Assembly (NCBI GenBank): GCA_031264075.1
Contig: JAISEO010000089.1
Span: forward strand, 1-32,289
DNA: 32,289 nucleotides
Source: Coriobacteriales bacterium
Lineage (GTDB): Bacteria > Actinomycetota > Coriobacteriia > Coriobacteriales > UBA8131
Direction of reading: 5' to 3'
Under the pieces are notes generated by a model. The model was not told where the DNA came from. It did no database searches and worked only from the letters and a program-made list of their open reading frames with translations. Both the position numbers and the translations under genes were made by a program. Below, piece by piece: positions 1 through 31,269 of this stretch (the first letter of the stretch is position 1; every line of letters begins with the position of its first letter).

Positions 1-115
1 CCTCAGGTCTGTTTGTGCGCGTGATGCCACTACTTGCGGTAATGGCGTCATGCGTACGGGCAGAGCTGAGACAAACTGGCCGAAAGATGGTGTGCAATGA
101 TTAATCATCGCTTCC
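1..115 (+). repeat. Truncated copy of a long palindromic, RNA-like repeat
   Basis: This stretch aligns over its whole length, at roughly 80% by eye, with the reverse complement of 13290-13404; the window edge cuts off the outer 5' arm. The apical part folds on the + strand: bases 22-34 pair with 48-60 around a TTGCGG-containing loop, and the helix continues outward with CAGGTCTG against the strand containing CAGAGCTG. Of 29 apical pairing positions, 27 pair (6 as G:U). The terminal core ATGATTAATCAT (97-108) contains the start codon of the next gene. Whether it is a mobile miniature repeat or a cis-acting leader RNA cannot be decided from sequence alone. Confidence 0.7.
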
Positions 116-870
116 TTAACATCTTCGACCGGCTCGCCCTGCCCTTACTTGTCACAGGCGGTGTGCTCGTTACCGTGGCCTTTGTCCTCGCCTTTACGGT
201 GGCTCCCCTGGTGTCCGGCGACGCGGTTGCCGAGGGATTTTTGGAGATAGACGGTCGCTACGTCACCAACAAGCTGCTGCTCTCACAGAAGATATTCTAC
301 TTTCACATGCCCGTGGCCGTGGTGAGCATGGCGGCGCTGCTGTTTACAGCCGTCTACAGCATTCTCTTTCTCAGGACCCGCGAAGGCAGATACGACCTGC
401 GTGCCCGTCTCGCCACGGAGATCTCTCTCGTCTTTGTGCTCATGACCATGGTGTCAGGAGAACTCTGGGAGCGCTATGAATGGGGCGTCTGGTGGACCTG
501 GGAGCCGCGGCTCACCACGTACTTCATACTCCTGCTCCTCGTGCTGGGGTATTTTATCGTGCGCAGCGCGGTGAGTGACCCCGAGCGACAGGCGGTGTAC
601 AGCTCGGTTCTGGGTATCATCGTGTTCATCGACGTGCCCATCTGTTTTATGGTAACGCGGCTGATTCCTTCGGGCCTGCACCCTGTCATCCTGCGCACGG
701 ACTCCGGCCTGCCTCCGCCCATGCTCATCCCCCTGCTCATGGCGCTCGTAGGATTTGCCTGCCTGGCCTTTGCGCTCTATCGTCAGCGCCTGCGTGCCGA
801 ACAGCTGCGCGAGCGGGTCGAGGCCCTTAAAAACCAACTCGACGAAGCAACAGACTCCAGAAGGGATTGA
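97..870 (+). CDS. ccmC: CcmC-like haem-handling membrane protein (cytochrome c biogenesis, System I)
   Basis: The 257-aa protein has about six hydrophobic segments and the tryptophan-rich haem-handling motif WGVWWTWEPRLTTYF near residue 128, which matches the CcmC/CcmF/CcsA 'WWD' domain. In CcmC this motif presents haem for attachment to the chaperone CcmE at the outer face of the membrane. The usual aspartate at the end of the motif is glutamate here. Histidines in periplasmic-side loops (FYFHMP near residue 70, SGLHPV near 195) fit the expected haem ligands. The charged tail (residues 228-257) resembles a short coiled coil. ATG 97 is the only in-frame start before an upstream stop at 67-69; it lies inside the palindromic repeat and has only a weak ribosome binding site. 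The ccmD-like gene follows directly. Confidence 0.82.
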   Translation: MINHRFLNIFDRLALPLLVTGGVLVTVAFVLAFTVAPLVSGDAVAEGFLEIDGRYVTNKLLLSQKIFYFHMPVAVVSMAALLFTAVYSILFLRTREGRYDLRARLATEISLVFVLMTMVSGELWERYEWGVWWTWEPRLTTYFILLLLVLGYFIVRSAVSDPERQAVYSSVLGIIVFIDVPICFMVTRLIPSGLHPVILRTDSGLPPPMLIPLLMALVGFACLAFALYRQRLRAEQLRERVEALKNQLDEATDSRRD

Positions 871-1120: not shown

Positions 1121-1168
1121 ATTTGTCCTATGGAAGTGATGATTAATCATTGCTTCCCTATGACAAAT
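1121..1168 (+). promoter_or_regulatory. 48-bp imperfect palindrome centred on ATGATTAATCAT
   Basis: The two 24-nt arms match at 20 of 24 positions around a centre at 1144.5. The outer parts are ATTTGTC and GACAAAT, the middle parts GGAAG and CTTCC, and the core is the perfect 12-mer ATGATTAATCAT (1139-1150). As + strand RNA, 22 of 24 positions pair, two of them as G:U. It lies directly upstream of the NrfD-like gene and could be a dimeric regulator site or a transcript hairpin. The TTGTC-C/A-TA outer boxes also occur twice upstream of the molybdoenzyme operon. Confidence 0.6.
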
Positions 1169-12533: not shown

Positions 12534-13175
12534 CTAAACGGGAGTATAGACGCAGGCGACGAACCGGGCTGGCTGGCCCCTGTGCGAGCGCACCTGATGC
12601 GGAACGATGGAGTCGTAATAGAGCGAGTCGCCCGGCTCCAGCACGTAGAGGTCCTTGCCGTAGGCTATCTCCAGCGGCCCTTCCAGCGCGTAGAGCCACT
12701 CCTCGCCCTCATGGGCGCTCAGCGTGTGCTCCAACTCCGCGGAGGGCTCCAGCGTGATGAAGAAGGGCTCCATATGACGCGAGGCCTTGCCTTCGGCCAG
12801 GGCCGCAAAGCTCAACTCGCCGGCATCGCTGTGGGTCTCGAGGCCCTTGAGCCGGGTGGTATTCCTATAGTCGCTGGCTCGGGTAAACACGGGGCCGAGG
12901 TTCTCATCGTCGTCGAGCAGGGTGCCGAGGCGTACGCCCAGGGCCCGGGTTATCTTGATGAGGGGAGCGAGGGAGGGAGCCAGCGCGCCGGCCTCCAGGT
13001 CGTGGATGACGGCCACCTCGCAGCCACAACGCTCAGCAAGCGCTTCGGGCGACAGCAGCAGAGCCTCCCTGAGTTCCGTTATTTTGGCGCCAATGCTGGC
13101 ACCTTCCGCTCCTGTGTCCGTGCTGGCCGTGGCGGAAGCCGCCGTGGCCTGCGTGGACTCTTCAGTCGTGCTCAT
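12534..13175 (-). CDS. XRE-family regulator with C-terminal cupin domain
   Basis: 213 aa. A low-complexity Thr/Ala/Ser stretch (residues 1-28) leads into a helix-turn-helix (IGAKITELREALLLSPEALA...VAVIHDLEAGALAPSL, about 29-85) and then a cupin_2 barrel (SAHEGEEWLYALEGPLEIAY...LEPGDSLYYDSIVPHQVRSH, about 140-213). The cupin binds a small ligand, often a carboxylate, and modulates DNA binding. Metal-type residues are present (the His and Glu of HEGEEW, and the His of PHQV). ATG 13175 is chosen because AGGCAGGTG lies upstream at suitable spacing; the frame is open further but without family similarity. Pairing with an acyl-CoA ligase suggests control of that gene. Confidence 0.88.
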   Translation of the reverse strand: MSTTEESTQATAASATASTDTGAEGASIGAKITELREALLLSPEALAERCGCEVAVIHDLEAGALAPSLAPLIKITRALGVRLGTLLDDDENLGPVFTRASDYRNTTRLKGLETHSDAGELSFAALAEGKASRHMEPFFITLEPSAELEHTLSAHEGEEWLYALEGPLEIAYGKDLYVLEPGDSLYYDSIVPHQVRSHRGQPARFVACVYTPV

Positions 13176-13278: not shown

Positions 13279-13289
13279 AACGCAACTAA

Positions 13290-13450
13290 GGGAGACAATG
13301 ATCAATCATTGCACACCATCTTTCGGCCAGTTTGCACCAGCTCTGCCCGTGTGTATGACGCCATTACGCAAGTAGTGGCATCATACACCCGAATAGACCT
13401 GGCACAAACTGACTCGAAATCTGGCGCACAAGCATTAATCATTGTCTCCC
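13290..13450 (-). repeat. 161-bp full-length palindromic element, likely structured RNA on the minus strand
   Basis: Both ends read GGGAGACAATGAT inward, and the whole 161 bp folds back on itself with a short apical loop at TTGCG. Read on the minus strand, about 70 of 78 arm positions pair. Ten of those are G:U, whereas the + strand would turn these ten into A:C mismatches and rescue only two. A direct TAA flanks the element on each side (13287-13289, 13451-13453), as a short target duplication might. The partner copy at 1-115 preserves the fold with compensatory changes. On the minus strand the element ends 115 nt upstream of the XRE-cupin gene. It is an ERIC- or MITE-like element in form; I do not recognise its family. 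Confidence 0.8.
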
Positions 13451-13580
13451 TAATTCTACAACAGCTTTGCCGTGCAGGGGGCGTGAATTTACTGTGGTGA
13501 ATCGGAGTGTTGTTCTCACGGGCCAGACTTCGGACAGATCGGACGCGAAACATCAGACAAAGGATACCTTGGCGCCTCCC

Positions 13581-14732
13581 TCAGGCCTCATACGGCGGAT
13601 AGCTGTTGCCGAGCATCTCCCGTATCTCCTCTTCGGTGACGTTGTCCACCCAGTACACTACCTCGTAGAACTCCTTGGCAACCTTTACCATGTCTACGTC
13701 GTAGCGCTCGGGATACAGCATGTTGGCTATCCACTGCAGGCCCAGGAAACGGTTGACTGCCGGAGGCCGGTCCAGCCAGGCAAAGGGGTTCTCGGGCATG
13801 GTATAGACGCGTCCGGTCTTGACGGCCGTGATGGGTGCCCAGTTCTGATTGGTGCGAATGATGTTCTCCGAGCCGCCGCGGAACTCCTCGCTCCAGGCTA
13901 TTATCACCTCGGGATTCCAGGCCAGCACCTGTTCGAGCGAGACATCCGACATGCCGTAGGCCGTGCCTTCCACGTCGGCGACGATGTGAGCCCCTGCCAC
14001 GATGAACACCAGTGCGTGCTGGGCCGTGCTCGGTTCTGTCTGCAGACCCAGCGGCCCCTCGGCATAGTAGAGGTTTATCTTCTCTTCCTCGGGTATGTCG
14101 GACACTGCCTCTGTTACGCGGGCCAGTATGTCTTCGAGGTAGGCCGCAATTTCCTCGCCGCGCTGCTCGCGACCCATGCACTGGCCCAGCAGACGGTAGG
14201 CGTTGGAGACAACCTCAAAGGATCCGTCGATAAGTACCACCGGGATACCCGTGGCCTCCTGCAGCTCCTCCGCCTCCGAGCGATTCTGCTCGGTGAGCGC
14301 CACGGCACTGATGGAGAAGACTATCTGTATGCGCTGTTTGAGCAGCATCTCCCGGTCTATCCTGCCGCTCTCGCCGCTCAGCGTGCCCATGTTGGGCAGG
14401 TTCTCAATGCCAGCCGGCAGGTATTTCATCTTGTCGGGGCCGATGGTGGACGCGATGCCACCGAGGAGTTCGGGCGCCATCGAGAAGCAGTAAATCTGCG
14501 CCAGCGCGGAGGTAAAGTAGACCCGCTCCAGCCGGTCCGGCGTGGGGATGACGAGCTCTCTGCCCGTGTCGTCGATGATGGTCTGTTCGCCGAGTATGGC
14601 GGCGTCTGCGCCCACCTTGAGGGAATCGCATCCCGCGAGGTTGGCGAGCGTTGCGCCGGCGGCCAGTGTGACGGTACAGGCCGAGGCAAACTGGATGAAC
14701 GATCTGCGCGACATATCGCGATGTATTGTCAT
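13581..14732 (-). CDS. ABC-transporter solute-binding lipoprotein (TroA/BtuF/FhuD-type fold)
   Basis: 383 aa. The N-terminus has a twin-arginine motif (SRRSFIQFA) and a lipobox ending ANLAGC (Cys about 35), so it is probably a Tat-exported lipoprotein anchored outside the membrane. The rest fits periplasmic binding proteins of the iron-siderophore/haem/cobalamin class: IIDDTGRELVIPTPDRLERVYF is the typical first strand-loop, DREMLLKQRIQIVFSI and LEQVLAWNPEVIIAW are the paired 'L..L.P.lii' segments, and TGRVYTMPENPFAWLDRPPA is the second-lobe binding loop. No ATP-binding or permease gene is adjacent in the window. Start ATG 14732 follows AAGGAAAG. Confidence 0.85.
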   Translation of the reverse strand: MTIHRDMSRRSFIQFASACTVTLAAGATLANLAGCDSLKVGADAAILGEQTIIDDTGRELVIPTPDRLERVYFTSALAQIYCFSMAPELLGGIASTIGPDKMKYLPAGIENLPNMGTLSGESGRIDREMLLKQRIQIVFSISAVALTEQNRSEAEELQEATGIPVVLIDGSFEVVSNAYRLLGQCMGREQRGEEIAAYLEDILARVTEAVSDIPEEEKINLYYAEGPLGLQTEPSTAQHALVFIVAGAHIVADVEGTAYGMSDVSLEQVLAWNPEVIIAWSEEFRGGSENIIRTNQNWAPITAVKTGRVYTMPENPFAWLDRPPAVNRFLGLQWIANMLYPERYDVDMVKVAKEFYEVVYWVDNVTEEEIREMLGNSYPPYEA

Positions 14733-17724: not shown

Positions 17725-18513
17725 TTATTCCTCCGTTGTCTCTGTGGTCGCCTCTGGGCTGCCTTCTGTGGTGCCCTCCTCGGCACCTGCTACGCTGAAT
17801 ACCTCTATATCTGCCAACTCGCGGAGCCTGCCCATGTAGGTGGCGAGCTTATCGGCGGGATCCTCCAGGTCTGCCAGGTCGGGATAACTGTCATCGATAA
17901 CGCTTTGGAGCTGCTGGTAGAAGAGTGCCGTCTTGGTCTCGTCGCGGTACTGCGCCTCGCTGTAGCCCATCCGCTCCAGGGCGGCAAGCCAGTCCTTCTC
18001 GGAGGCATAGCCTCGCTTGATGTCGGCGAGAGCCGCCTTAACGTCCTCATCGGTGATGATGATGCCGTTTTCGAGCGCGGCCTGGTGTATCAGGGCATCG
18101 TCGATGAGTTCGCCCAGCACTCGCTCACGGTAGCTGGCAATACTGTAACCGCTGGCGAGCAGCCAGTCCGCCCACTCCTCATCGGAGGCAAGCGAAGGGT
18201 CGCCCGCACGGGTCTGGGCAATCCTCAGATCTATCTCCGAGTCCCGTATCTCCGTGCTGTTGACCGTGGCAGCCACAAGGTCCTCTGCCTCTTCACCCAC
18301 GGCCAGGCCCTCGGCGCCTGCCTGAGCGTCGGACGCGTCGTTTGAACAGGCGGGAAGCACCAGCAGCGCCAGCAGCAGACTGAGCAGCAGGGCCAGAGAC
18401 AGCAACAGCCCTGCCGCGGCGCCCGGTTTTCCCGCAAACCAGCGCGCTGCTGCCCGCGGTGCCGCGTGCGGTATGCCTCGGCCGGGCTCAGACGGCCTGT
18501 GCAACAGGGCCAT
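17725..18513 (-). CDS. Lipoprotein with SurA N-terminal-like chaperone domain
   Basis: 262 aa from ATG 18513 (ATG 18519 is also possible); AAAGG about 9 nt upstream supports 18513. The start overlaps the end of the 1650-aa gene by 26 nt. A basic N-terminus and long hydrophobic helix end in the lipobox LPACSND (Cys about 56). The mature part (VNSTEIRDSEIDLRIAQTRA, then helices around LIDDALIHQAALENGIIITDEDVKAALADIK) matches the SurA_N/PrsA-type substrate-binding domain. There is no parvulin proline-isomerase domain; the tail is a short Thr/Glu/Gly stretch. Set among three huge exported proteins in one operon, it is likely a dedicated extracytoplasmic folding factor (inference). Confidence 0.78.
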   Translation of the reverse strand: MALLHRPSEPGRGIPHAAPRAAARWFAGKPGAAAGLLLSLALLLSLLLALLVLPACSNDASDAQAGAEGLAVGEEAEDLVAATVNSTEIRDSEIDLRIAQTRAGDPSLASDEEWADWLLASGYSIASYRERVLGELIDDALIHQAALENGIIITDEDVKAALADIKRGYASEKDWLAALERMGYSEAQYRDETKTALFYQQLQSVIDDSYPDLADLEDPADKLATYMGRLRELADIEVFSVAGAEEGTTEGSPEATTETTEE

Positions 18514-21500
18514 GCCCATCCGCCTTTCCGGTCTTCTTCGTGCCGCCTCGGGCCGCGACAAAGTAGCGATACCGATAGATGCCACCGACAACCAGGGCCA
18601 CCAGGGCCAGAGACAGGGCCGACAGGGCCACTGCCGTGAGCGGCTCCGGTGAGCTGTTGTCAATGACTTCCGTGTCCGAGCCTATGGCAAACACCACGTA
18701 CTGGCCGCCGCTGCCGCCGCCGCCTACCTCGCCGCCCGCGACGACATCGGTGCCGAGCTCCTGCTCTGTACCGTCAAAACTGAGGCCGATGGCATTGGCC
18801 GTACCGCGCTGGCCACCCTCGCGCAGGCTGTTGCCCGGGCCGGACCCGAGCCCCACGCCGGTGCCCGTGCCGCCGCCGCCGCCTCCGCCGGTGCCGATTG
18901 AGCGGCCGACGCCGAGCTGCACGAGGCCGCTGTAGTTGCCCTGGCCGGATACGAAGGCCTGGGTTGTGGCGGTGGACTTGCGCACGGTCAGGGCGTAGTC
19001 CTCACCCTCCGCGAGCCTCTGGGCATTCTGCCGGTCCAGCAGGGTGAGGTCGGAGCGCGTTCCCGCGTCATCCACGGTAACCGAGCCGGAGATGTCACAC
19101 CGCGCGAGCGGTGCCTGCAGGATGTTGAAGCTGGCCAGAGCCTCGCCGGTGTAGATGTCCCTGCCGCGCACCACCACCTGGGCCGGGGCCCCGTCGCGCT
19201 TGGCATTGGCATTGACGTTATTGCGGTAGAGGAGGATATAGTCCGCGCCCTCCCGCGCGACGGTCGTCTGGCCCCTGAAGGTGATGGTGACCCGTACCTG
19301 AGGGGTCTTGGGCGCACCGTCGTAGACATAGCTGTTGGCGCCCAGGAACTGTATGTCCATGACCTGCGCGCTGTCGAGGAAGCCGGTGATGTTGAAGTAG
19401 ACATTGTTCTGCCCGGCATAGTCGTTGATGCCTATGAGATGGATGGAGGCCGTGCCCTGCCTCCGGTTGTTGGCATAGCCGTCGCCGTATATGCCCACCG
19501 AGCTGTCAAACACATAGTCCAGGTCCAGACGGAGCACCGTACCGCCGGGCATGGTGAGCACGGGCACGGGTTTGATGTAGGCTCCGGTGTAGTCGTAACT
19601 CGCCTCCACTCCGCTCACGCGGGCCTGGGAGAGGTCGTAGCCGCCGTAGGCGTAGTAGGAATCGGTGGTGCGGGAGGCGAGCGAGTAACCCGGCTCGTAG
19701 CGCCAGGCCCGGTTGCTGCCCAGATACGGCGCGCGGCCGAGTGCAACGAGATCCTCGCACACCAGGGCGAAACTCATATACCGGCCTTCGTTGAAGTCGG
19801 CGACGGTGCGATAGAAGGTGATGGTGAAGTACTGGTAGTAGTTGCGGCCGTACTCGTTGTAGGTGGTAAAATCGCCGCCTCCCGATTGGATGAAGTTGGT
19901 GACGGTGGAAGACTTCTTGCTACGGAAGACGACCTGCGTGAGAACGCCCATATGCTCGCGATCGCGGTAGAGGTTAAAGGCGTTATTGCCAAAGGTCACG
20001 CTGCTGGCATTGCCGTTGAAGGTTATGGAGCTCACAGCGCTACAGTTCTGGTAGGCACGCTCGCCCACCCGCTCAAGGCTCACGGGCAGTTCGATGCTGC
20101 CCAGATTGTAGCAAAGGAGGAAGGCACCGTTGCCGATAGAGCGCACAGGGCCGGGCAGCGCAATGGCCCGCAACTCTAGGCAACGCTCGAAGGCGGAATC
20201 GCCTATCTGGGTGAGCTGTGAGGGGAGGTTCACAGAGACGAGCAGCCCGCAGCTGGCAAAGGCCGCGACAGGCAGCACGCTCAGCCTCGAGCCGTTGGCA
20301 AACTGTGCCGACTTCAGGGCGCTACAGTTGGCAAAGGCGTAGTCGCCCATGCTTGCCACGGCGGCAGGCACCGTAATGCTCGCCAGTCTCTGGCAGAAGG
20401 CAAAGGCATAGGTACCCAGGGAGGTAATCGAAGAGCTCAGGGAGATGCCGGTGATGTACTGGCACGATTCAAACCGCGTACTGGCGCCAAAGGCATAGTC
20501 CGTCAGCGCTATCACCTGGTAGCTGTTCTCCTCCATGTCGCTCACCTGCGGCGGAATGACGGGCACGCCCTTGATGGACTGATGGATGGCCGGGGCCCCG
20601 TTAACGCCGAGCCCCACGGCGACCGTGCCGGTATGGGCCTCCTCGTCCAGGCTCAGTATCTTGAACCAGCAGTCTGTCGTAGTGATATCCGGGTTTTCCC
20701 GTATCGTAATGGGCGCCTTGAAGCCGATGCCGTCGGCAAAGACCACACAGGAGTCCGCCAGCGGGATGTCGCCGCCAAAGCCCTCCTCGTAGGCCCAGCC
20801 AAAACCGAGCGCGAGAGGCGGCACCGGGCCGCCGGAGCGCACATCGCTCTCCGCGAGCCGGTCGAGCAGCGCCCGCTGCTTTACGACGAGCGTGGCCGCG
20901 CGGTTGTTGATGTCGCGGTCGTGCTTGCTGTCGTAGTAGACCACCGTGTAGTAGACCGTGGGATTGGACACGCCAAAGCTGAGATTGGCCTTCTTGCCGC
21001 CAAACACGACGAGCCTGATGTTGGAACAGCCGAAGAACAGGCCGTTGTCAACTATCTTGGAAGCATCGGAGGCAAAGTAGATATTGGTGAGGTTGGTGCA
21101 GCGCGCAAAGGCGCCCGCACCCATGCTCGTCACGCTCTTGGGGATGGTGATGGTTACGAAGCGCGAGCAATCCTGGAAAGCACCCGCGCCCAGGGCCGTG
21201 ACGGTGTAGTACAGCACATCGGGGCCGCTCACCTGCTCGGGCACGGTTATCGCGCCCATCGTCGTAGCAGCTATCGCGGGCGCCGCCACGGTGACGGTAC
21301 CGGGCCGGGTACCGTCGGCCCTGGCCGTGACCGTATAGCTGACCGGCACCTGCTCGACGGTATTGGCCGTAAAGCTGGCACCCACCGTAAGCGGGGCCGT
21401 AGCCGCCTGGGCATAGGCATAGAAGGAGTCCGTCATCTCCGCACTGAGCGAGTAGGGCTCCCCCACGGACTTCTCCTCATAGATCCAGCGCTGGTCGCTC

Positions 21501-23440
21501 GGCGGTGCGGGGATGGAGCCCAGGTAGATGCTGCTGCCCGTGGCGGTCTCCGGCACCGAGTTGGCCCTGAGGATGAACTGGGTGCGCGGCGAGACAGCGG
21601 GGTCCAGCGCGTCCGCCCTGGTGTTGTAGAAGGCGATGGTGTAGTACACCGTGGGCAGCGAGGCGAAGAAGTTGAGGGTCTTGGACTTCTTGCCCATGTA
21701 GACGACCGCGCTGATGCTGTCACAGAGCGCGAAGGTCGAGGACAGCGAGCTGAGCCGGGAGGCGTCGCCCCTGAAGACAACCGTGCGGAGCGCGAGGCAT
21801 TCCTGAAAGCTCGAAGAGCCCAGAGAGGTGGTGGAGCGGGGCACCTGGAGGGTCACGAGGCTTGTGCAGCCCTGAAAGGCGGAGTTTCCTATCGAGCGTA
21901 TGCTGTTGGGCAGGTTGATGGAATACAGGCGTGGGCATTCCTGAAAGAGGGAGGCCTGGATGTTCATCATCTGGGAGCTGGCGTCAAAGTCCACTTGCGC
22001 GAGCTGCAAACACTGCATGAATACCGCCGAGCCCAGATAGGTGAGGGTGGCGGGAATAGAGACGGAGGTCAGGCCGCTGTACCAGAAGCAGTAGGTCTCG
22101 ATGCTTCTGAGAGAGGCAGGAAACTCGATGCCCTCCAGGGCTGTGCAGTAGGCAAAGCCCATGCTGGGGAGTTCGGCAATGACGCAGTTGCTCTCAAAGC
22201 CCACGTAGTTGAGGCTTCCACACCGGGAGAAGGCGTTGTTGCCCAGCGTACGCAGACTCCGGGGGATGAGGAACTCAATGAGACCGCTCTCAGAAAATGC
22301 CGATGAGCCTATTGAGCTGACAGGACCGGCGAGACTCACCGTGCGCAGCTTAAGACACCGGGAGAAGGCGTAACTGCCGATGGTGGTTATCTGACTGGGC
22401 AGTGCCACCGCGCCGGTGAGGCCGGTCGCAGCGAACATGGAGTCGGTTATGACCGTGAACCCGCCACCCTCAGGGATACTCACCGAGGCCAGCTTTATCG
22501 AAGATTCGAAGACGGAACTCCCCACCACAGAGACGGATCGGGGAAAGACGAACTCCTCCAGGGTGTTGAGCCGGGAAAAGGCGTAGCTCCCTATGATACT
22601 GATGCCCTCCGCCACATTGACGACAGAGACACTGTAGGGTTTTACATCCAGGCCGCTTATCATCGGGTAGAAGGCAAAGTCGGCGACGGCGGTGACCTTA
22701 TAGATGAGGCCCTGGTACTCCACGCTCTCGGGGATACTGATGGTTCCCGTAAAGCTGGGCGTGACCGTGTAGTCGGGGCTGTCGTAGGGGAGCGAGCGGC
22801 CCGTGCCAACCTGTACGGTGTTGGAACCGGTTATCTGGTAGAGCACGCTGATGCCCTCGTCCGAATTGTCACGAAAGGTGTCGCCCGTGGCAAGCGGCGC
22901 TACGACGGGCTCCTCGGAAGTGGGGTTCTCGGCCCACCCAGCTTCCTCGGCCCGGGCGATGGCCTCGGCGAGTGAGGTCTTTACGAGCTCTCCCCTGCGG
23001 CCCTGCTCTGCCTCGACACCGCTGGTCCCGGTGGAGGGCTCCGTGTCGGGAGAAGCTCCGTCCGCTTCCTCCTCGCCTTCGGGCACACGCGCATCCTCGT
23101 CGGACGCGCCATTGTCTTCCGTAGCGGGGGTATCGGGCTCAGGCGAGTCGGTGTCGGCAGGAGCTGGTGGGGTTTCGCCCTCCGGCGCGGGGCTGGCCTC
23201 GTCCTGTCCGGTCTCCCACGTGGCGCTCTCGCCTATCTCACCAAAGGCAGAGCCGGTACCGTCAGGAGCGCTGCTCGCGGAGGCCGGCGTATGGGCCTTC
23301 TGGGAGGGCGCCGTGCCCTGGGTACTCGAACTGCCCTGGCCGCCCTGGCCACTCTGGGCAAAGGCCGGCGTCACCAGCAGGCCGCTTATCAGTACCACGG
23401 AGAGCAGCACGCTCAGACAACGGGAGAGGCAGTTCTTCAT
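18488..23440 (-). CDS. 1650-aa BspA-type leucine-rich-repeat surface protein with C-terminal membrane anchor
   Basis: A signal peptide (1-28, ending PAFA) is followed by a Pro/Glu/Ser-rich acidic linker to about residue 150. Three LRR_5 arrays follow with the 'IGSYAFSxCxxLxxVxLP' pattern, for example ITTIGSYAFSRCLKLRTVSL. Each array is introduced by a conserved preamble and closed by a connector (YYTIAFYNT near 601, YYTVVYYDS near 832, YFTITFYRT near 1206) that ends in W-x-YE and DSxYAY. Near the C-terminus there is an Ig/MBG-like segment (FLGANSYVYDGAPKTPQVRV), a Gly-rich spacer, and a membrane helix (ALSALSLALVALVVGGIY) with a basic tail. No LPXTG motif is present. GGGAGGTG precedes the start, which overlaps the upstream stop as ATGA. 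Such proteins often mediate adhesion. Confidence 0.9.
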   Translation of the reverse strand: MKNCLSRCLSVLLSVVLISGLLVTPAFAQSGQGGQGSSSTQGTAPSQKAHTPASASSAPDGTGSAFGEIGESATWETGQDEASPAPEGETPPAPADTDSPEPDTPATEDNGASDEDARVPEGEEEADGASPDTEPSTGTSGVEAEQGRRGELVKTSLAEAIARAEEAGWAENPTSEEPVVAPLATGDTFRDNSDEGISVLYQITGSNTVQVGTGRSLPYDSPDYTVTPSFTGTISIPESVEYQGLIYKVTAVADFAFYPMISGLDVKPYSVSVVNVAEGISIIGSYAFSRLNTLEEFVFPRSVSVVGSSVFESSIKLASVSIPEGGGFTVITDSMFAATGLTGAVALPSQITTIGSYAFSRCLKLRTVSLAGPVSSIGSSAFSESGLIEFLIPRSLRTLGNNAFSRCGSLNYVGFESNCVIAELPSMGFAYCTALEGIEFPASLRSIETYCFWYSGLTSVSIPATLTYLGSAVFMQCLQLAQVDFDASSQMMNIQASLFQECPRLYSINLPNSIRSIGNSAFQGCTSLVTLQVPRSTTSLGSSSFQECLALRTVVFRGDASRLSSLSSTFALCDSISAVVYMGKKSKTLNFFASLPTVYYTIAFYNTRADALDPAVSPRTQFILRANSVPETATGSSIYLGSIPAPPSDQRWIYEEKSVGEPYSLSAEMTDSFYAYAQAATAPLTVGASFTANTVEQVPVSYTVTARADGTRPGTVTVAAPAIAATTMGAITVPEQVSGPDVLYYTVTALGAGAFQDCSRFVTITIPKSVTSMGAGAFARCTNLTNIYFASDASKIVDNGLFFGCSNIRLVVFGGKKANLSFGVSNPTVYYTVVYYDSKHDRDINNRAATLVVKQRALLDRLAESDVRSGGPVPPLALGFGWAYEEGFGGDIPLADSCVVFADGIGFKAPITIRENPDITTTDCWFKILSLDEEAHTGTVAVGLGVNGAPAIHQSIKGVPVIPPQVSDMEENSYQVIALTDYAFGASTRFESCQYITGISLSSSITSLGTYAFAFCQRLASITVPAAVASMGDYAFANCSALKSAQFANGSRLSVLPVAAFASCGLLVSVNLPSQLTQIGDSAFERCLELRAIALPGPVRSIGNGAFLLCYNLGSIELPVSLERVGERAYQNCSAVSSITFNGNASSVTFGNNAFNLYRDREHMGVLTQVVFRSKKSSTVTNFIQSGGGDFTTYNEYGRNYYQYFTITFYRTVADFNEGRYMSFALVCEDLVALGRAPYLGSNRAWRYEPGYSLASRTTDSYYAYGGYDLSQARVSGVEASYDYTGAYIKPVPVLTMPGGTVLRLDLDYVFDSSVGIYGDGYANNRRQGTASIHLIGINDYAGQNNVYFNITGFLDSAQVMDIQFLGANSYVYDGAPKTPQVRVTITFRGQTTVAREGADYILLYRNNVNANAKRDGAPAQVVVRGRDIYTGEALASFNILQAPLARCDISGSVTVDDAGTRSDLTLLDRQNAQRLAEGEDYALTVRKSTATTQAFVSGQGNYSGLVQLGVGRSIGTGGGGGGGTGTGVGLGSGPGNSLREGGQRGTANAIGLSFDGTEQELGTDVVAGGEVGGGGSGGQYVVFAIGSDTEVIDNSSPEPLTAVALSALSLALVALVVGGIYRYRYFVAARGGTKKTGKADGHGPVAQAV

Positions 23441-26400
23441 CGCAGCACCTCCCTGCTCCAGCCGAGGGTGTCGGTGGCCTGCGTGCGCAGAGCCGTGGGC
23501 ACCGCGCCTTCACCCCCGAGGAAGCGGAGCAGCTGGATGGCATCCTTCTGCTCGTCGAGGAGGGCATAGGTGCTGGTATCCTCGGGATCCGCCAGGATGA
23601 GGGGTGCTCCGTGCCTGCCCAGAAGCACACCTCCGGCAAGCGCGTCAGGAAAGTTCTGGCCGGTGGCAATGCCCACGCCGTGGGCCTGCATGGGGGTAGT
23701 GGCCAGCGCGTAACGGGCGATGGCGAGCGAGGTGCTATAGCGGTTCTCCCCGCTCAGGCGCTCGACGTTTTCGGGGCCCAGCACCTGCGCGAGGGAGGCC
23801 ACGACGCCGTCGCTCAGCGCGCTCGTGCCGCCTACGACGATGGCTCGCCGGAATCCCTGGCGCGCGATCTCATCCAGGGCGGCGCTGCTGAGTGTGTCGC
23901 TCTCGCTGAGCAGGATGGGAGAGCGGGTGTGGGCGGCATAGGGCGATATGGACAGCGCATCGGGGAAGCTCGCCCCGGACGCGACGATTACCGTGTCGCT
24001 CCATCCGCCGGCAAGCGAGCCATAGTACAGCACCTCGAGTGAGGTGGAGTAGCGATTCATGTCGGACACGCGCGCGACGCTCATGCTGCCGTAGAGCTCG
24101 GCCAGCCGCGCGGCCACGCTGTCCGAGACAGCGCTCTCGCCGCCGACGATGATGGTCTGGAAGAAGGGGCTGTTGGCAGAGAGCGCGAGGAGGGCCTGTT
24201 CGGCGTCCGCGGTGAGGGTCTCGGACTCTGTGAGCACGATGGGGTAGTCCAGCACGCCGGCAAGCGCCGTGGCCGAAAGCGCATCAGGAAAGCTCACCCC
24301 CGAGACGATGATGGCGCCGTTGCTGCCCTGCGGGTAGGCGTCGAGGGCTATCTGCACGGCGGTCTGGTAGCGGTACTCCCCCGCATAGGACTGTGCGCGC
24401 AGTATCTTGAACGGCACCTCCAGGTCTCCGCTGTACGAGGCCATACCGCTGCAGATGATGTAGCCCATACCCGACTCAACATTGTCGCGGTAGCTGAGTT
24501 CGTAGTCCCTGTCCTTGATGAGCAGGCGTCCGTCGCTGTCGTGCAGCACAGGCTCGGGACGAATCTCAGAGCCGTTGTACAGGTAGTTGGGCTCAAGGCC
24601 GCTCGCCGTGATGGTGTCCATCTTGAAGGAGGCCGAGAGCACGGTAATGCGGGTGATACCCGAGAAGAACTGCAACTCCAGGGGGGTGCGCATGACGAGA
24701 TCGCTCGGGGTCTGCCCAAAGAGCAGCTGCACCGCCCGGGCCATGTCCGGCCTCGCGCTGGGGGCGGGCTCAGGGGTCAGGTCGTCCTTGCTCAGCTGCT
24801 TATGGATGGCGCTGAGAGCCAGCGACGGCTCCACGGGCTGTCCGTCATCGGTGACGCTGTAGCCGGCGTAGGGGTAGTAGCTGAGGGGCTGGCCGTAGAG
24901 CTCGTACCAGGAGATGGATTTGGTGGTAGCCGAGTCGGCCGTATTGAAGATGAGCGTGTCGCCCTGCTCAAAGCGCAGCCCGTAGCGCGCGAAGAGCGTA
25001 GTGAGGGGTATGGTCTGGGGCACCGTGGCGATATAGCAACTGCCAAAGGCCGTCCAGTAGCTGTAGTGGAAGCTGCGCGTTGAGGCCAGTGCGCGAAGCT
25101 GGTCCAAGTTGAAGCTGGCCACCTCGGTGGTAAGCCCGGTGGCGGATTGACGGGCCAGGCTCAGCTGATAGGCGGGCGTTACGGAGAAGCGCACCACCTC
25201 GCCCGGCATGACAAAGCTTGTCTGGTAGGCGGCGGTGCTCTGGAGGACCTTTCCGCTCGTGGCACCCGTCATGGTAAGCAGGGTAGCGCTCACCGCACCG
25301 CGCTGGGTGAGGGTCACGGCAACCGTGTCGCCATAGCGTGCCTCACTCACCGGCTCTCCGTCAACGCTGAGTGCCAGCTCAAAGGCACCGTCCACGCCGG
25401 AGGTATCCAGGCTGTAGGTGACCCGCTGCTTAACAGCCGTGCCGGAGTCGCGCAGGGGCTCAGACGGCACAAAGCTGTAGGCCCACTCAAAATGCTCCTC
25501 CGCCGCCGGGATGGCACCGGCGTAGATCTGTTCGGAGTCGGGCTTGAGACCTTTGAGCACCGTTCCTTCCCGCACACAGACGTAACTGCTGCGGACAAGG
25601 GCCGCGAGCGCGTCCGCGTTGTCGTAGTAGGAGACGGTGAGGTAGTTCACCGGAGAGGCGTCGGAGAAGGCAAGCTCGGCGTGCCCGCTCGCGTAGACGA
25701 TATCCGTGATGTTGGGCGTGTTCTCAAAGGCATCCCGCGTGCCCACCAGGGCGGACACGTCGCTGTCAAAGACGATGCGCGTCAGGGCCGGGCAGTTGGC
25801 AAAGCAGTAGTCGTCTATGAGCGTGAGGCGCGCCGCCGCGTCGGTGGTAGAAGCGGGCGCTGCGGCGTGCAGCGGGAGTGCGTCTTCAGCTTCCCCGACA
25901 ACTCCGGCGTCTCCGGCAAGCCCCAGGGTTCCCGCACTGGGCAGCTCGAGGGGATCGATGCCGCCAAAGACGACCTCAGCAAGCGAGGCACAGCTATTGA
26001 AGGCCCGCTTTCCCAGGGTCTCCAGGCCAAACGGCAACTTGATGGAGCGGAGCCCGCTCTGCTCGAAGGCGGCGGTTTGCAGTGCCGTGAGTGAGGCGGG
26101 CAGTTCTATGCCTTGCAGTGCCGTGGTGCCGGCGAGAGCCGACGCCCCGATGCTCGTGAGCGTGGAGTCCGCGGCAAAGCGCACCAAGGCCAGGGTGCTA
26201 CAGTTGAGGAAGGCCGCCTGGTCGAGCGTGCTCACCGTAGCAGGCAGCTCTATGCCGGTGAGGGCGCAGGCATCGCCCTTCACCGTGGAGCCAAAGGCAA
26301 AGCTGCCGACAGCGGATACCGTGTAGTCCACGCCGTCCGAGGCATGGATGGTGGCAGGGATGACGAGCGTGCCCGTGAGCGCGGGGTTAACGGCCGGCGA

Positions 26401-29400
26401 ACCGTCCACCGCGGTACCCACCCGCACGAAGCCCGTAGGCTCCTCGTCCTCGTCAAGCAGCACATCAAAGGTGCAGGAAACAGGGGTCTCCGTGACGCCG
26501 CCCCCACTCCCCGTGCGCAGCACGACGTCGGCGGTGACGGAATTGTCGTTTATCACCCGCTGGTAGGCGTAGAGCGAGTCAACCATCGTCAGGTCGTCTC
26601 CCATGACGCGCGACTCGTAGCGCCACTCATGGTCCACGGCAAGCGGAGGCAGCTCGTCGCTCTTTGCGTAGCCGGTAATGCCGCCGAAAAACTCGATGGC
26701 CGAGGGGGAGAAGATATAGCTCCCCTGCTTGAGTATGACTCGCGCGAGCAGGATGCCGTCCTTGAAATCATCCAGAGAATCGTAGTAGCGCACGGTGTAG
26801 TACCGGGTGAGCGTGGCGGTGTTGGGCCCGAAGCTGTTGAAGCTGCCCTTCTTGCTGCCGAAGACCACGGTGGTGAGCAGGTCGCAGTTGAGGAAGGCGT
26901 CACGGCCCACCTTGGTCTGGGAGAGGTCGTTATCCAATACCAGGGTTGCGAGGTTGCTGGTCTGTGTGTCGGTCTTGACGTTTTCGTAGGCAAAGGCGAA
27001 GATGCCGATGCTCGTGACGGTGGAAGGCACCACCATGCCCGTGATGCCCATGCAGCGGTAGAAGGCGTAGTCGCTTATCCGGGCCACCTCATAGCTGAGG
27101 CCGTCGGGGTCGGGGTCGCGCACCGTGGCAGGCAGGGCCACGACGCCCTGGGTGTTTGCGGCCACGGCGGGGATGCTCCGGGAGTCAAGGCCCACCTGAA
27201 CCGTGGCAGGGACCTGGTCGTCGCCGATGGACAGTACGCGGTAGCTGACGGTGGCGCCGTTGGGCTCCACCGCGGTAAAGTCGTTGCCCGCAAGGTAGGA
27301 CGAGATGGTGTAGACGCCCCGCACCTCGCCGCTGTAGCCACCCAGGGCCGCGGCGCTCGCGGTAACCCGTATGCGGCCGCGCGTCGTAATGTCGTTGCTG
27401 GCCTGCCAGTCGCCGGCCCCATCCTGGCGCTCAAAGCTCGCGGTGTAGTGGGTGTCGAGGACGAGCACCTCCCCCGCAGGCGAGACGAGCGCACCCCTTT
27501 CCGAGCGCAGAGGCTCAATGGCGGCGCCGGTGTAGCGGTAGCCATCGCTGAACTGGAAGCGGGCCCAGGCAAGGTCGTAGTAGTCTATCTGCCGGGCCAC
27601 CGCGTTAGTGGAGCCCGTGAGATTGCTGTTCATGGGCGGGCTGTCCTCGAACTCCCAGAAATTCGCGGCCCCGGGCCAGGCGGGCACGGCTCCGCTGAAT
27701 ACGGCACCCGTGGGAATGAGCGTGCTGGTGACGGAGGAGAGCTTCGTGCTCTCCCTGACAACGGCCTGCCCGAGCGATGTGCCGGCCGCGAGCGCGGCGT
27801 CGCTTGCATAGAAGGTGACGCGATAGTAGAAGTCCGTAGCGCTAATTACCGTGTTGAACAGCGAACGCACCGCCGTGCTCGACTCGGCCATGAACACCAC
27901 GGTGGTGATGTTATAGCTGGCATTGAAGGAGTAGTCGAAGAGCATCTGGGTAACGTCGCCCTCAAAGATGACCGTGGAGAGACTGGAGCAGCTGCTGAAG
28001 GCATTGGCACCCACGTCAAGCACCCCGCGGGGAAGCGTGATGCGCGTGAGCCCGGAACCCGCGAGGGCCAGGCGGCCGATACTCGTGACCGTGGAGGGGA
28101 TGGTAAGCGTCTTGAGTGCGGTGCAGCCGTTGAAGGCGTATTCGGGGATGCTCGTAATGCCCTCCTCCAGTATGACCTCGGAGAGCAGGGTGCAGCCACT
28201 GAACGCGCTGGTCCAACTCACGAGACCACCCGGCAGCCGCACCTTCTGGATACGGGAACTGGAGAAGAAACCACTACCGATGCTCCGCAGGGTGGAGGGC
28301 AGGACAATATCCTGGAGCGAAGAGCCGCTGAACCAATAGCCGTTGGAGGGCAGCGCCGTTATACCCTCGGGAAAGGTGAGGGTACGGAGGTTACTGTTGT
28401 AGGCGAAGATATACGAGCCGCAGGTGCTGGGCTCGAGCGAGACGGGAAGCGTCAGCCTCTGCAGGTTGGTCATATACGCAAAGGCATAGCTGCCGATGGT
28501 GGTGACGCTGTCAGGGATGACAACCTCGGTGAGATTGACACAGACCGGACGCGTGGTGCTGTTGGAGCTGGTATTGCCAAAGGCGTACTGCGAGATGGCC
28601 GTAACCTTGTACACGACCCCGCCGTAGTTGATGGTGGAGGGGATGACGAGCGTTCCCGCGGCGGTGGTAGCCACGGCCGTATCAGCCATGCCGGCACTGT
28701 AGACGGTAACCGTCTCCTCACCCAGGACGGCGCTCGTAATCTGGAACTGGCAGTCGATGATGCCCTCCGTGCCGCTCTGTGCGATGAGCGTGATGGGCTT
28801 CTTGAAGACGTAGCCGTTGGCCGCCGGCAGGATGTTGATGGTAAAGGCGATGGTCTGCAGGGTATTGGCATAGCGACCCTGGCCCGTGAGTACGCAGCGC
28901 AGGCTTCCCGGCTCGGAGACATCGGTGGTAGCGCCCCAGTTACCCTGGCGGTCAAGACGCAGGAATCCCACGGTGTAGTCCGTGCCCTCGGTGAGCACGC
29001 CACCCATGGGCCCACAGATGATGACCTCGGCCAGGTTGATGACGGGCCTGTTGGCATACTCGAAGACCTGGCCCGGCAACAGCCCGTAGACAATGGCATC
29101 GTCGATGGTATAGGCATCGTTGGTCTGCTTGGCGTAGGCAGAGAGGGAGTCGTTGAGCGAGGAGCGCAGCATCGTGGGCATGTCGAGGACCGGCAGACCG
29201 TTCTTTACCAGGTTATAGTTCCAGGTGGGCGCGTACCAGTGCCCGTCGTCTGTGACCCACGTAGGATAGGCCGGCACCGCACCGGACCAGATGGCACCCG
29301 CAAAGGCGCCCGTAGTCCGCTCCGCCAGATTGGGCAGAATAGCGAGCGGTACGTCGTCGCGGATGGTTATCCTCCCGAGTATTCCCTGCGTCGTGTCCAC

Positions 29401-31269
29401 CACCTTATCATCATTGTAGAAGGTGACGGTGTACCAGCAGGTGGGCTTGCTGGGGAAGAGGTTGGTGATGCTCTCCTTCTTGGCCTTGTAGACGACGTTC
29501 TTGAGCGCAGTCGTGCTGACGAACACATTGACGCCAAAGCCGATGGAGGACGCGTTGCCCTCAAACACCACCGTGTCGAGGTTGGAGCAGGTAGCAAAGG
29601 CCAGGCTGCCTATGCCGGTCATGCTCGTGGGAAGCGTTATCCTGGTTATACGGCAGGCGCCAGCGTTCTTCTCATCCGTGTAGCCAAAGGCGCTGTTGGC
29701 GATGCTGAAGGGGGTGAAGGCGTTGCCGTACACGTCAAGCAGGGCCGGGATGGTAAGCTCGCCCACCGCGCTCGTGGAGATGGCCCTGCCAAACGGAACG
29801 GGATCCTTGACGACGATGACGCGGCCGCTCGCGCTCCCCGTCCACTCGGCGAGCTGGAAGAAGCAGGGGATGCTGCTCTTGGTACCGTCGGCATAGACAA
29901 AGGGCACGTTGGTCTGGAAGGGCGTCTTCGTCGTGATGGCAATCGTGAAGTTCGTGGCGATGCTGCCGTGGAAATCGCCCGTGCCGGTGGCCACCACCCG
30001 CACCGTGCCCGGCGCGATAAGGTCGCCCGTGGCCTGCCACGTGCCCGAGCCCTCCGCCTGGCGATAATAGCTCATCACGAAATGCCGGGGGTGGTTCTCC
30101 GTATCGCTCTTCTTCTCACCGTAATGGGTCATGAAGCCCAGGCTACAGGTGAGCTGGGGGCGAAAGTCAACGGGGCTGCCGGTAAAGTCCATGTCCGCTA
30201 TGGCAAAGCTGCCGGTGGAGAGGTCCCTGAAGTCCGACCAGGTCGCATAGGCCGTATGCGAGTTATCGAGCCCGGTGTCCATGTACTTGCCCTCTACGTC
30301 AGACATCCAGAGGTTGCAGCCCTGGGGCAACACGGGAATGGTGCCGCGGTAGACCAGGCTCGGATCCAGCGCATCGTCAATCTTGTAGAGCGGCACGCCA
30401 TGCCTGATAAGCGCACTGCCCAGGGGGGCCTCCTGCGCGTCCCGCGCGGCGAGGCTGGCATAGAAGCGTATCGTGTAGTAGAAGGCGGGTACAGCCAGGT
30501 TCTCTCCGTTGTAGAGGCCCTCCTGGTTTGCCATACGGGCCCCATGGTACAGCACGGTCCGGATGTCCATGGCGCCGCCGGTAAAGACGTAGTTGCCGCA
30601 GACGGGCGCGTCTCCGAGGAACTCCACGCTTCTGAGTCCGGTGCAGCGGCAGAAGGCGTAGGTCTTCATCTCGACGACCGACGCGGGAATAACAAGCTCG
30701 GAGAGGCCCGTACAGTAATAGAAGGCGCGCTCGCCGATTACCTCCAGGCCTTCCGGCAAGGCCAGGCTCGTGAGCCCGTTGTTGTAGGCGAAGGCCCGGG
30801 TGCCTATCTGGGTAAGCGTACTGGGCAGAATAACCGAAGTGAGTTGTGTGCAGGAGACGTCGGTGGAATCGCCGCCAAAGGCAAAATTGCCTATCTGGGT
30901 GACGGTGTAGGACTCGCCACTGTAGTCGACAATCGAAGGGATGGTGATGCTACCCCTGGTGGTGAGGGCCACGGCCCTGCCGCCGAGCAGGGTGTTGTCG
31001 CCTATGACCGTCAGCGTGCCGTCGGGCAGCACCCGGTAGCGGCAGCTTACCTGGCTCACGTTCCCGTCAGACGAGGTGAGCGTGATAGGGGCAGTGATGC
31101 TGAAACCCTGCGGCAATGGTTCGGCAAAGGCGGTAGAATTGAGGCCGGTAAGGCCCAGGCTTACACCCATCACGAGCAGGCCTATCAGGAATATCAGGGA
31201 CAGCACTACGACCCTCAAGAGCCTTTTGGCGCTCAGGAGCTTTTCTACATCAGGCCTGACTACCAGCAT
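23437..31269 (-). CDS. 2610-aa giant BspA-type LRR surface protein with three CWB2 repeats
   Basis: An N-terminal basic segment and long hydrophobic helix end in STAFAE (cleavage near 49). Five LRR_5 blocks follow, with repeats such as SVTTIGSYAFAYMTNLQRLT, closed by connectors near residues 266 (YYTIRFYAS), 613 (YTVTFYNDD), 1150 (YYRVTFYAS), 1492 (YYTVRYYDS) and 1877 (YLTVSYYDN). Several connectors are followed by Ig-like 'G.DY' modules. Residues about 2035-2160 form a different domain (FNLDQLRALA, IPLTTLFARYGL, ISWYELYGQPLSYYPY) that I cannot name. The C-terminus from about 2290 carries three CWB2 modules (YAGEYRYQTAV, VSDMNRYSTSL, LSGENRYSTSL) for wall anchoring. The start has AGAGG 6 nt upstream and a strong promoter 240 bp away. 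First gene of the surface operon. Confidence 0.92.
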   Translation of the reverse strand: MLVVRPDVEKLLSAKRLLRVVVLSLIFLIGLLVMGVSLGLTGLNSTAFAEPLPQGFSITAPITLTSSDGNVSQVSCRYRVLPDGTLTVIGDNTLLGGRAVALTTRGSITIPSIVDYSGESYTVTQIGNFAFGGDSTDVSCTQLTSVILPSTLTQIGTRAFAYNNGLTSLALPEGLEVIGERAFYYCTGLSELVIPASVVEMKTYAFCRCTGLRSVEFLGDAPVCGNYVFTGGAMDIRTVLYHGARMANQEGLYNGENLAVPAFYYTIRFYASLAARDAQEAPLGSALIRHGVPLYKIDDALDPSLVYRGTIPVLPQGCNLWMSDVEGKYMDTGLDNSHTAYATWSDFRDLSTGSFAIADMDFTGSPVDFRPQLTCSLGFMTHYGEKKSDTENHPRHFVMSYYRQAEGSGTWQATGDLIAPGTVRVVATGTGDFHGSIATNFTIAITTKTPFQTNVPFVYADGTKSSIPCFFQLAEWTGSASGRVIVVKDPVPFGRAISTSAVGELTIPALLDVYGNAFTPFSIANSAFGYTDEKNAGACRITRITLPTSMTGIGSLAFATCSNLDTVVFEGNASSIGFGVNVFVSTTALKNVVYKAKKESITNLFPSKPTCWYTVTFYNDDKVVDTTQGILGRITIRDDVPLAILPNLAERTTGAFAGAIWSGAVPAYPTWVTDDGHWYAPTWNYNLVKNGLPVLDMPTMLRSSLNDSLSAYAKQTNDAYTIDDAIVYGLLPGQVFEYANRPVINLAEVIICGPMGGVLTEGTDYTVGFLRLDRQGNWGATTDVSEPGSLRCVLTGQGRYANTLQTIAFTINILPAANGYVFKKPITLIAQSGTEGIIDCQFQITSAVLGEETVTVYSAGMADTAVATTAAGTLVIPSTINYGGVVYKVTAISQYAFGNTSSNSTTRPVCVNLTEVVIPDSVTTIGSYAFAYMTNLQRLTLPVSLEPSTCGSYIFAYNSNLRTLTFPEGITALPSNGYWFSGSSLQDIVLPSTLRSIGSGFFSSSRIQKVRLPGGLVSWTSAFSGCTLLSEVILEEGITSIPEYAFNGCTALKTLTIPSTVTSIGRLALAGSGLTRITLPRGVLDVGANAFSSCSSLSTVIFEGDVTQMLFDYSFNASYNITTVVFMAESSTAVRSLFNTVISATDFYYRVTFYASDAALAAGTSLGQAVVRESTKLSSVTSTLIPTGAVFSGAVPAWPGAANFWEFEDSPPMNSNLTGSTNAVARQIDYYDLAWARFQFSDGYRYTGAAIEPLRSERGALVSPAGEVLVLDTHYTASFERQDGAGDWQASNDITTRGRIRVTASAAALGGYSGEVRGVYTISSYLAGNDFTAVEPNGATVSYRVLSIGDDQVPATVQVGLDSRSIPAVAANTQGVVALPATVRDPDPDGLSYEVARISDYAFYRCMGITGMVVPSTVTSIGIFAFAYENVKTDTQTSNLATLVLDNDLSQTKVGRDAFLNCDLLTTVVFGSKKGSFNSFGPNTATLTRYYTVRYYDSLDDFKDGILLARVILKQGSYIFSPSAIEFFGGITGYAKSDELPPLAVDHEWRYESRVMGDDLTMVDSLYAYQRVINDNSVTADVVLRTGSGGGVTETPVSCTFDVLLDEDEEPTGFVRVGTAVDGSPAVNPALTGTLVIPATIHASDGVDYTVSAVGSFAFGSTVKGDACALTGIELPATVSTLDQAAFLNCSTLALVRFAADSTLTSIGASALAGTTALQGIELPASLTALQTAAFEQSGLRSIKLPFGLETLGKRAFNSCASLAEVVFGGIDPLELPSAGTLGLAGDAGVVGEAEDALPLHAAAPASTTDAAARLTLIDDYCFANCPALTRIVFDSDVSALVGTRDAFENTPNITDIVYASGHAELAFSDASPVNYLTVSYYDNADALAALVRSSYVCVREGTVLKGLKPDSEQIYAGAIPAAEEHFEWAYSFVPSEPLRDSGTAVKQRVTYSLDTSGVDGAFELALSVDGEPVSEARYGDTVAVTLTQRGAVSATLLTMTGATSGKVLQSTAAYQTSFVMPGEVVRFSVTPAYQLSLARQSATGLTTEVASFNLDQLRALASTRSFHYSYWTAFGSCYIATVPQTIPLTTLFARYGLRFEQGDTLIFNTADSATTKSISWYELYGQPLSYYPYAGYSVTDDGQPVEPSLALSAIHKQLSKDDLTPEPAPSARPDMARAVQLLFGQTPSDLVMRTPLELQFFSGITRITVLSASFKMDTITASGLEPNYLYNGSEIRPEPVLHDSDGRLLIKDRDYELSYRDNVESGMGYIICSGMASYSGDLEVPFKILRAQSYAGEYRYQTAVQIALDAYPQGSNGAIIVSGVSFPDALSATALAGVLDYPIVLTESETLTADAEQALLALSANSPFFQTIIVGGESAVSDSVAARLAELYGSMSVARVSDMNRYSTSLEVLYYGSLAGGWSDTVIVASGASFPDALSISPYAAHTRSPILLSESDTLSSAALDEIARQGFRRAIVVGGTSALSDGVVASLAQVLGPENVERLSGENRYSTSLAIARYALATTPMQAHGVGIATGQNFPDALAGGVLLGRHGAPLILADPEDTSTYALLDEQKDAIQLLRFLGGEGAVPTALRTQATDTLGWSREVLR

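Follow-up and report, generated by a model that had tools for sequence, protein, structure and literature searches.

A dispersed palindrome of Coriobacteriales is probably a non-autonomous IS5-type MITE with a core kept as a hairpin on one fixed strand

The palindrome at positions 13290-13450 of the window (the whole stretch of 32,289 nucleotides from a Coriobacteriales draft genome that we analysed) is one copy of a dispersed repeat and no private leader of the adjacent XRE-cupin operon. We consider it very probably a non-autonomous IS5-type MITE that is moved in trans, with a core kept as a covarying hairpin on one fixed strand and a polarity that stems from the element's own life. According to this explanation, an IS5-family transposase supplied in trans would move the element, and the polarity would arise from a step of its life at which the strand in question is present as a folded single strand. 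This step may involve either a single-stranded DNA hairpin during transposition or replication or an RNA encoded by the element itself, options between which we divide our expectation about evenly. The window copy needs no role in the regulation of the XRE-cupin gene, and a cis role there is unlikely.

The window element sits between two genes of the same direction, both on the minus strand, and the annotated features are listed here with their strand (a dot where none applies) and the basis of each assignment.

1..118 (+): another copy of the element, truncated at the contig end (own-genome match C14:4-118; sequence)
1132..1157 (.): remnant with terminal repeats only (GGAAGTGATGATTAATCATTGCTTCC) and the core lost, between CTAT direct repeats (pattern match at 1142-1160; sequence)
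12534..13175 (-): XRE HTH and cupin regulator gene, the downstream neighbour, with its ATG at 13175 (Pfam HTH_31/HTH_3, Cupin_2; sequence)
13286..13289 (.): left target-site duplication CTAA (sequence; family-wide test of direct 4-mers)
13290..13449 (-): hairpin MITE copy, for which the family's folding ("CTTGCGG") strand is minus (folds, 33 own-genome matches, family alignment)
13290..13306 (+): left terminal inverted repeat GGGAGACAATGATCAAT (end motif shared with IS5-family elements of G010)
13304..13437 (-): conserved core of the hairpin, in which the stems covary, with a G.A tandem mismatch, a bulged A and the apex CACTACTTGCGTAATG (covariance-model match, 1.0e-40; pair counts)
13434..13449 (-): right terminal inverted repeat, GGAGACAATGATTAAT in minus-strand reading (pattern match at 13434-13452)
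13450..13453 (.): right target-site duplication CTAA (sequence; family-wide test of direct 4-mers)
13581..14732 (-): periplasmic-binding-protein gene (Peripla_BP_2), the upstream neighbour (Pfam)

Elsewhere in the window, two very long and unassigned minus-strand open reading frames (23437-31269 and 18488-23440; 2610 and 1650 codons) adjoin a gene for a CWB2 cell-wall-binding protein.

Folded as RNA, the minus strand of 13290-13450 pairs over its entire length at -113.3 kcal/mol (z -17.6 relative to dinucleotide shuffles), in agreement with an earlier sequence-only reading of this DNA, and the plus strand reaches only -81.0 kcal/mol (z -10.5). That reading had also counted 10 G:U pairs for the minus strand and only 2 for the plus strand. 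An alignment of arm versus arm that favours neither strand reproduced these numbers for the window copy (row L001) among 61 matched positions, with 4 gap columns and 7 other mismatches, close to the 8 mismatches given before. For a single copy, this 10:2 split is weak evidence when taken alone (two-sided binomial approximately 0.04).

A dispersed family with IS5-type ends

Searching the own genome of the window, a draft of 2.18 Mb in 105 contigs, gave 33 matches that correspond to around 30 places, since one is the palindrome matching itself and about a dozen are cut by contig ends. Five relatives of the same family, which like all relatives named here are Coriobacteriales metagenome-assembled genomes in draft state, contain 13-22 matches each. 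Beyond these, a covariance model of the core detected matches in 14 genomes of one family among 301 searched genomes of the order, with only a fragment elsewhere. No description of the element was found in the open-access literature. At three loci of the own genome, the same nested insertion is found within the element, yet beside different genes, which means that the marked element was copied. A repeat distinct from the element, GC-rich and resembling GGGGCCCCCGCAAAACTC...GAGTTTTGTGGGG, lies nested at one place in it and was copied along at L011, L022 and L030 in the own genome and at L064, L066 and L067 in G022.

The copies end in GGARRC...GYYTCC within a directly repeated CTAG-like tetramer. 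Because CTAG is its own inverse and a duplication of it looks the same as a longer inverted repeat, the tetramers other than CTAG are the ones that matter: CTAA/CTAA flanks the window copy and L044, CAAG/CAAG flanks L008, and TTAG/TTAG was also seen, next to CTAG/CTAG at many copies. Of 56 copies, 14 have direct 4-mers at their flanks compared to 7.0 expected from shuffled right flanks (2 of 2000 shuffles as high), and 20 have direct 3-mers compared to 10.5 expected (none of 2000 shuffles as high); perfect direct repeats are missing from many copies. The TAA flanks noted in the sequence-only reading are thus a true repeat, but are better seen as part of a 4-bp direct repeat CTAA around a 160-bp element. 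Similarly, the mobile origin suggested there holds for a MITE, but the type is IS5/CWAG rather than ERIC/TA: a TA duplication of the ERIC type is ruled out by the CAAG/CAAG, TTAG/TTAG and CTAA/CTAA flanks. An apparent 8-bp duplication at L008 was also discarded, being accounted for by a CAAGGGTCAAGGG repeat already present at the target.

CWAG is the target of IS5-family elements, and elements of this kind with matching ends are present in the relative G010. A 1.1-kb element on its contig C96 has the ends CTAG|GGAAGCACCGATTAAT...ATTAAATCGGTGGTTCC|CTAG and holds an IS5-family transposase gene (NF033581, 2.8e-61) that is probably truncated at its start. On contig C1, a gene for a 401-amino-acid IS5-family transposase (3.3e-78) lies beside a CTAG|GGAGACGCTGATTTAATC end, the one end of that element that was located. 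The hairpin element itself has 160 bp with no transposase gene inside, and the search of the own genome's draft assembly detected no IS5-family transposase; repeated insertion sequences are often lost from draft genomes. We classify the element as an IS5-type MITE because of its IS5-like ends and duplication, the matching IS5 elements, the copying of marked elements and the existence of solo terminal repeats. One such 26-bp coreless palindrome of terminal repeats is the remnant at 1132-1157, and similar solo repeats occur in L117, L132, L133 and L135; perhaps they arose from slippage deletion of the hairpin.

Comparison of the fetched loci and a search for the window flanks in four congeners revealed no precise empty site at the DNA level, but shared sites and rearrangements were seen. 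Copies in different genera lie between or next to the same genes in two cases (L034 in G010 and L038 in G020; L050 in G003 and L068 in G022), which suggests either ancient insertions common to both genomes or a site that was used more than once. The two flanks of L048 in G003 adjoin two different G000 copies, L003 and L009, as if genomes had been rearranged by recombination between copies.

With respect to host genes, around two dozen copies share just the stop codon with the 3' end of a gene, this codon being the junction's TAG, while others lie in frame inside genes, where the element is read on either strand. One case is the [FeFe]-hydrogenase at L062, whose alignment with PDB entry 8a6t breaks off at residue 509 and resumes at residue 568, whereas the solved chain runs on directly from 458 to 462; 55 residues have therefore been inserted in the L062 protein, and PDB [FeFe]-hydrogenases are without this insert. 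Similar inserts are found in a CoA-enzyme activase between FFCE and LGC (L040), in AMMECR1 (L067), in CcmF (L066) and in a Na+/H+ exchanger (L045). In the AMMECR1 gene, it is the composite of the element and the nested GC-rich repeat that lies in frame. The tRNA nucleotidyltransferase at L033 (G022) carries an in-frame insert together with a second hairpin element, so that two hairpins are read through, and these fall between GGCVRDALCG and GDWDIATSATPEQV in the conserved active-site region. All in-gene copies with clean ends have 161 nt, which together with the 4-bp duplication makes 165 nt or 55 codons. This length rule fits the kept reading frame.

A covarying core with a fixed strand polarity

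Covariation across homologous copies, which the sequence-only reading had named as a check on its hairpin, proved to be strong: 48 of 58 core pairs show changes on both sides, and the covariation score of 0.443 compares to 0.198 after shuffling and 0.08-0.11 with partners slid. Several non-canonical sites on the CTTGCGG strand are near-invariant, comprising a GC/TG internal loop, a tandem G.A and a C.A below the apex (alignment columns 21-22, 33-34 and 79). The window copy lacks one G of the conserved apex CTTGCGGTAATG. A comparison with Rfam, the other check named before, gave no matching family, with zero matches in the window at gathering score. Conservation for the sake of an element-encoded peptide of 43-47 residues on the folding strand was also considered and rejected, since only part of the family has the two overlapping frames open, and no frame stays open across all of it.

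The same core occurs with other terminal repeats, which are AGGGCACTTCTA in G007 and G012. In G004, the core has TAGTACACTGCGTCA ends and an unrelated outer stem, with GGCAAGGCGG...GGCACTACTTGCGGTAATGCC...TTACGCAGC kept. Five copies (L101, L103, L104, L105 and L056) carry an unrelated hairpin in place of the inner half, which is GGTAGCACTAAATC...GATTTAGTGCTACC in three of them, and retain the outer core motifs. We tentatively entertain the idea that the core is mobile independently of its terminal repeats. It might encode a strand-specific folded nucleic acid needed for spread (a trans-acting RNA or a single-stranded DNA substrate) and have been captured by MITE families with GGGARRC, GGGCACYTCTA and TAGTACACTGCGTCA ends, with IS5-type transposition by the 161+4 rule allowing harmless insertion at stop codons and in frame within genes.

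The G:U excess seen in the window copy persists in a larger set and is always on the same strand. All 63 near-full-length copies have more G:U pairs on the CTTGCGG strand (598:138 in total), and among 40 further copies, mostly from other genomes, the count is 239:118 with 35 copies above and 2 below; for every one of these 40, a profile built on sequence only gave the same orientation. Because the copies are related, new changes weigh more than this standing bias. On a tree, Watson-Crick pairs of the core changed 107 times to G:U and 37 times to A.C, compared to 15 and 11 times in the terminal repeats, but these event counts are inflated since the copies share ancestry and recombine. Mutations private to a single copy are safer for this reason, and in the core they are split 55 to 23 in favor of G:U, some 3.6 standard deviations from 1:1; the terminal repeats, with 4:3, offer too small a sample for a verdict. 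In 60 of 60 copies, the folding strand forms the more stable structure of the two strands, whether RNA or DNA parameters are used, so that energies cannot tell selection on RNA from selection on single-stranded DNA.

Host genes were called from codon usage with a simple gene finder. Among copies whose two flanking genes share a direction, 22 have the CTTGCGG strand in sense and 22 in antisense orientation. Copies of both orientations carry the same bias (9.7 G:U pairs per sense and 9.8 per antisense copy), and the polarity therefore belongs to the element, as single-stranded DNA or as its own RNA, and not to a host transcript. Private mutations even lean more strongly towards G:U over A.C when the copy is antisense (23:5) than when it is sense (14:12), which is the reverse of what selection on host transcripts predicts. 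Selection on an RNA hairpin, as proposed in the sequence-only reading, thus stands insofar as the bias is real, strand-consistent and recurrent, but single-stranded DNA is equally possible, and the attribution of the bias to the transcript of the XRE-cupin/acyl-CoA ligase operon is not supported.

Explanations of the strand polarity

A hairpin of the XRE-cupin leader, transcribed by the host from the minus strand, regulating or processing the operon in cis and keeping its G:U pairs by selection, would be in line with the far more stable minus-strand fold and with both neighbours lying on the minus strand, where read-through would yield minus-strand RNA. We nevertheless regard this explanation as very improbable, given the equal bias in copies antisense to genes (22:22) and the dispersed nature of the element; furthermore, the XRE-cupin gene is present in the related genome G004, where the match stops short of the element, and the window copy has lost a base of the conserved apex. 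Hardly more credible, and if anything less so, is that the bias is a by-product of open reading frames in translated copies. There are copies inside genes, and the strand opposite to the fold is fully open in 37 of 60 copies compared to 19.6 expected, but fewer copies than expected are open on the folding strand (9 versus 13.7), and restoring the 586 G:U pairs by G-to-A changes would create a stop in only 53 cases and by U-to-C changes in none, on which grounds stop-codon avoidance was rejected as the cause of the bias. Inheritance by all copies of a lopsided G:U set from the first element is improbable to a lesser degree: the copies share descent and several of the G:U columns are of old date (26/147, 62/108), but both the core tree changes and the private mutations lean the same way, and the bias is also found in divergent subfamilies.

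Two other explanations carry more weight, and we see each as a serious if minority possibility. If each copy or a master copy were transcribed from within the element into a trans-acting RNA, selection would act on the folded RNA. The G:U-tolerant covariation and the near-invariant tandem G.A, bulged A and apex C.A, as in structured RNAs, would fit well, as would the independence from host orientation, but no promoter-like site was found in the window copy, there is no Rfam family, and the same polarity is obtained with DNA parameters. The latter point speaks instead for a single-stranded DNA hairpin in mobility or replication with one strand as the substrate, as for IS200/IS605, REP/RAYT or attC, because the top, folding strand is then also the more stable one; such a hairpin would bring the two ends of the element together and would fit a polarity that is fixed and independent of host transcription. 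Against it stand the ends of the element, which are those of IS5-family DDE transposases, and these enzymes act on double-stranded ends. In addition, Y1 transposases were not found in the copy-rich G003, G005, G007, G009, G012 and G022, all of them incomplete drafts, but are present in G001 and G002, where no copy of the element was found.

Relation to known mobile palindromes

Bacterial MITEs with long hairpins have been reviewed before and include RUP/IS630, Correia/NEMIS, ERIC and YPAL (PMC2229807). The element shares with them a length of about 100-200 bp, terminal inverted repeats, a long and stable stem-loop, dispersed copies, ends in common with an insertion sequence and, for some, in-frame fusions. 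It differs from them by its IS5-type ends and a CWAG-like 4-bp duplication instead of TA, by a core that is kept on one strand whatever the orientation, and by the combination of this core with different terminal repeats. From ERIC in particular, with its TA duplication, it is set apart by duplications such as CAAG/CAAG in L008. Compared to IS5-family insertion sequences (NCBIfam NF033581), the terminal repeats and the CTAG duplication match the transposase-bearing copies in G010, but a transposase gene is absent from the hairpin element, whose palindromic interior is unrelated. Repeated palindromes with a strand-specific hairpin are also a feature of REP/RAYT systems, though our element exceeds the 20-40 bp REPs four- to eightfold in length and has ends and a duplication of IS5 type; a partnership with RAYT was discarded, as there is no co-occurrence with Y1 transposases (none in six copy-rich draft genomes, present in two congeners without copies).

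The palindromic elements of Rickettsia and Wolbachia (RPE and WPE; PMC2229807, PMC10969869, PMC3767692) resemble ours in how they invade proteins, being palindromes of 100-150 bp of which some lie in frame in conserved protein genes with the frame intact. Unlike them, our element has Coriobacteriales as hosts, and most of its copies are intergenic or at stop codons. Another difference is that transposase-type ends and a target duplication can be identified here, whereas the target duplication of RPEs was marked as unknown in a 2007 review (PMC2229807). MITEs with hairpins and in-frame fusions were thus already known (PMC2229807, PMC10969869; RPE in PMC3767692). What is new is the Coriobacteriales family itself, together with IS5-type ends on a palindrome that invades proteins, a length rule of 161+4, terminal repeats that are exchanged around a conserved core, and the polarity of the strand. 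The mobility of protein-invading palindromes such as RPEs has been an open question, and here a look-alike in another phylum carries identifiable transposase ends and a target duplication. The polarity of the core, common to about 100 copies in both orientations, is moreover a quantitative sign of selection on a single-stranded form of a MITE.
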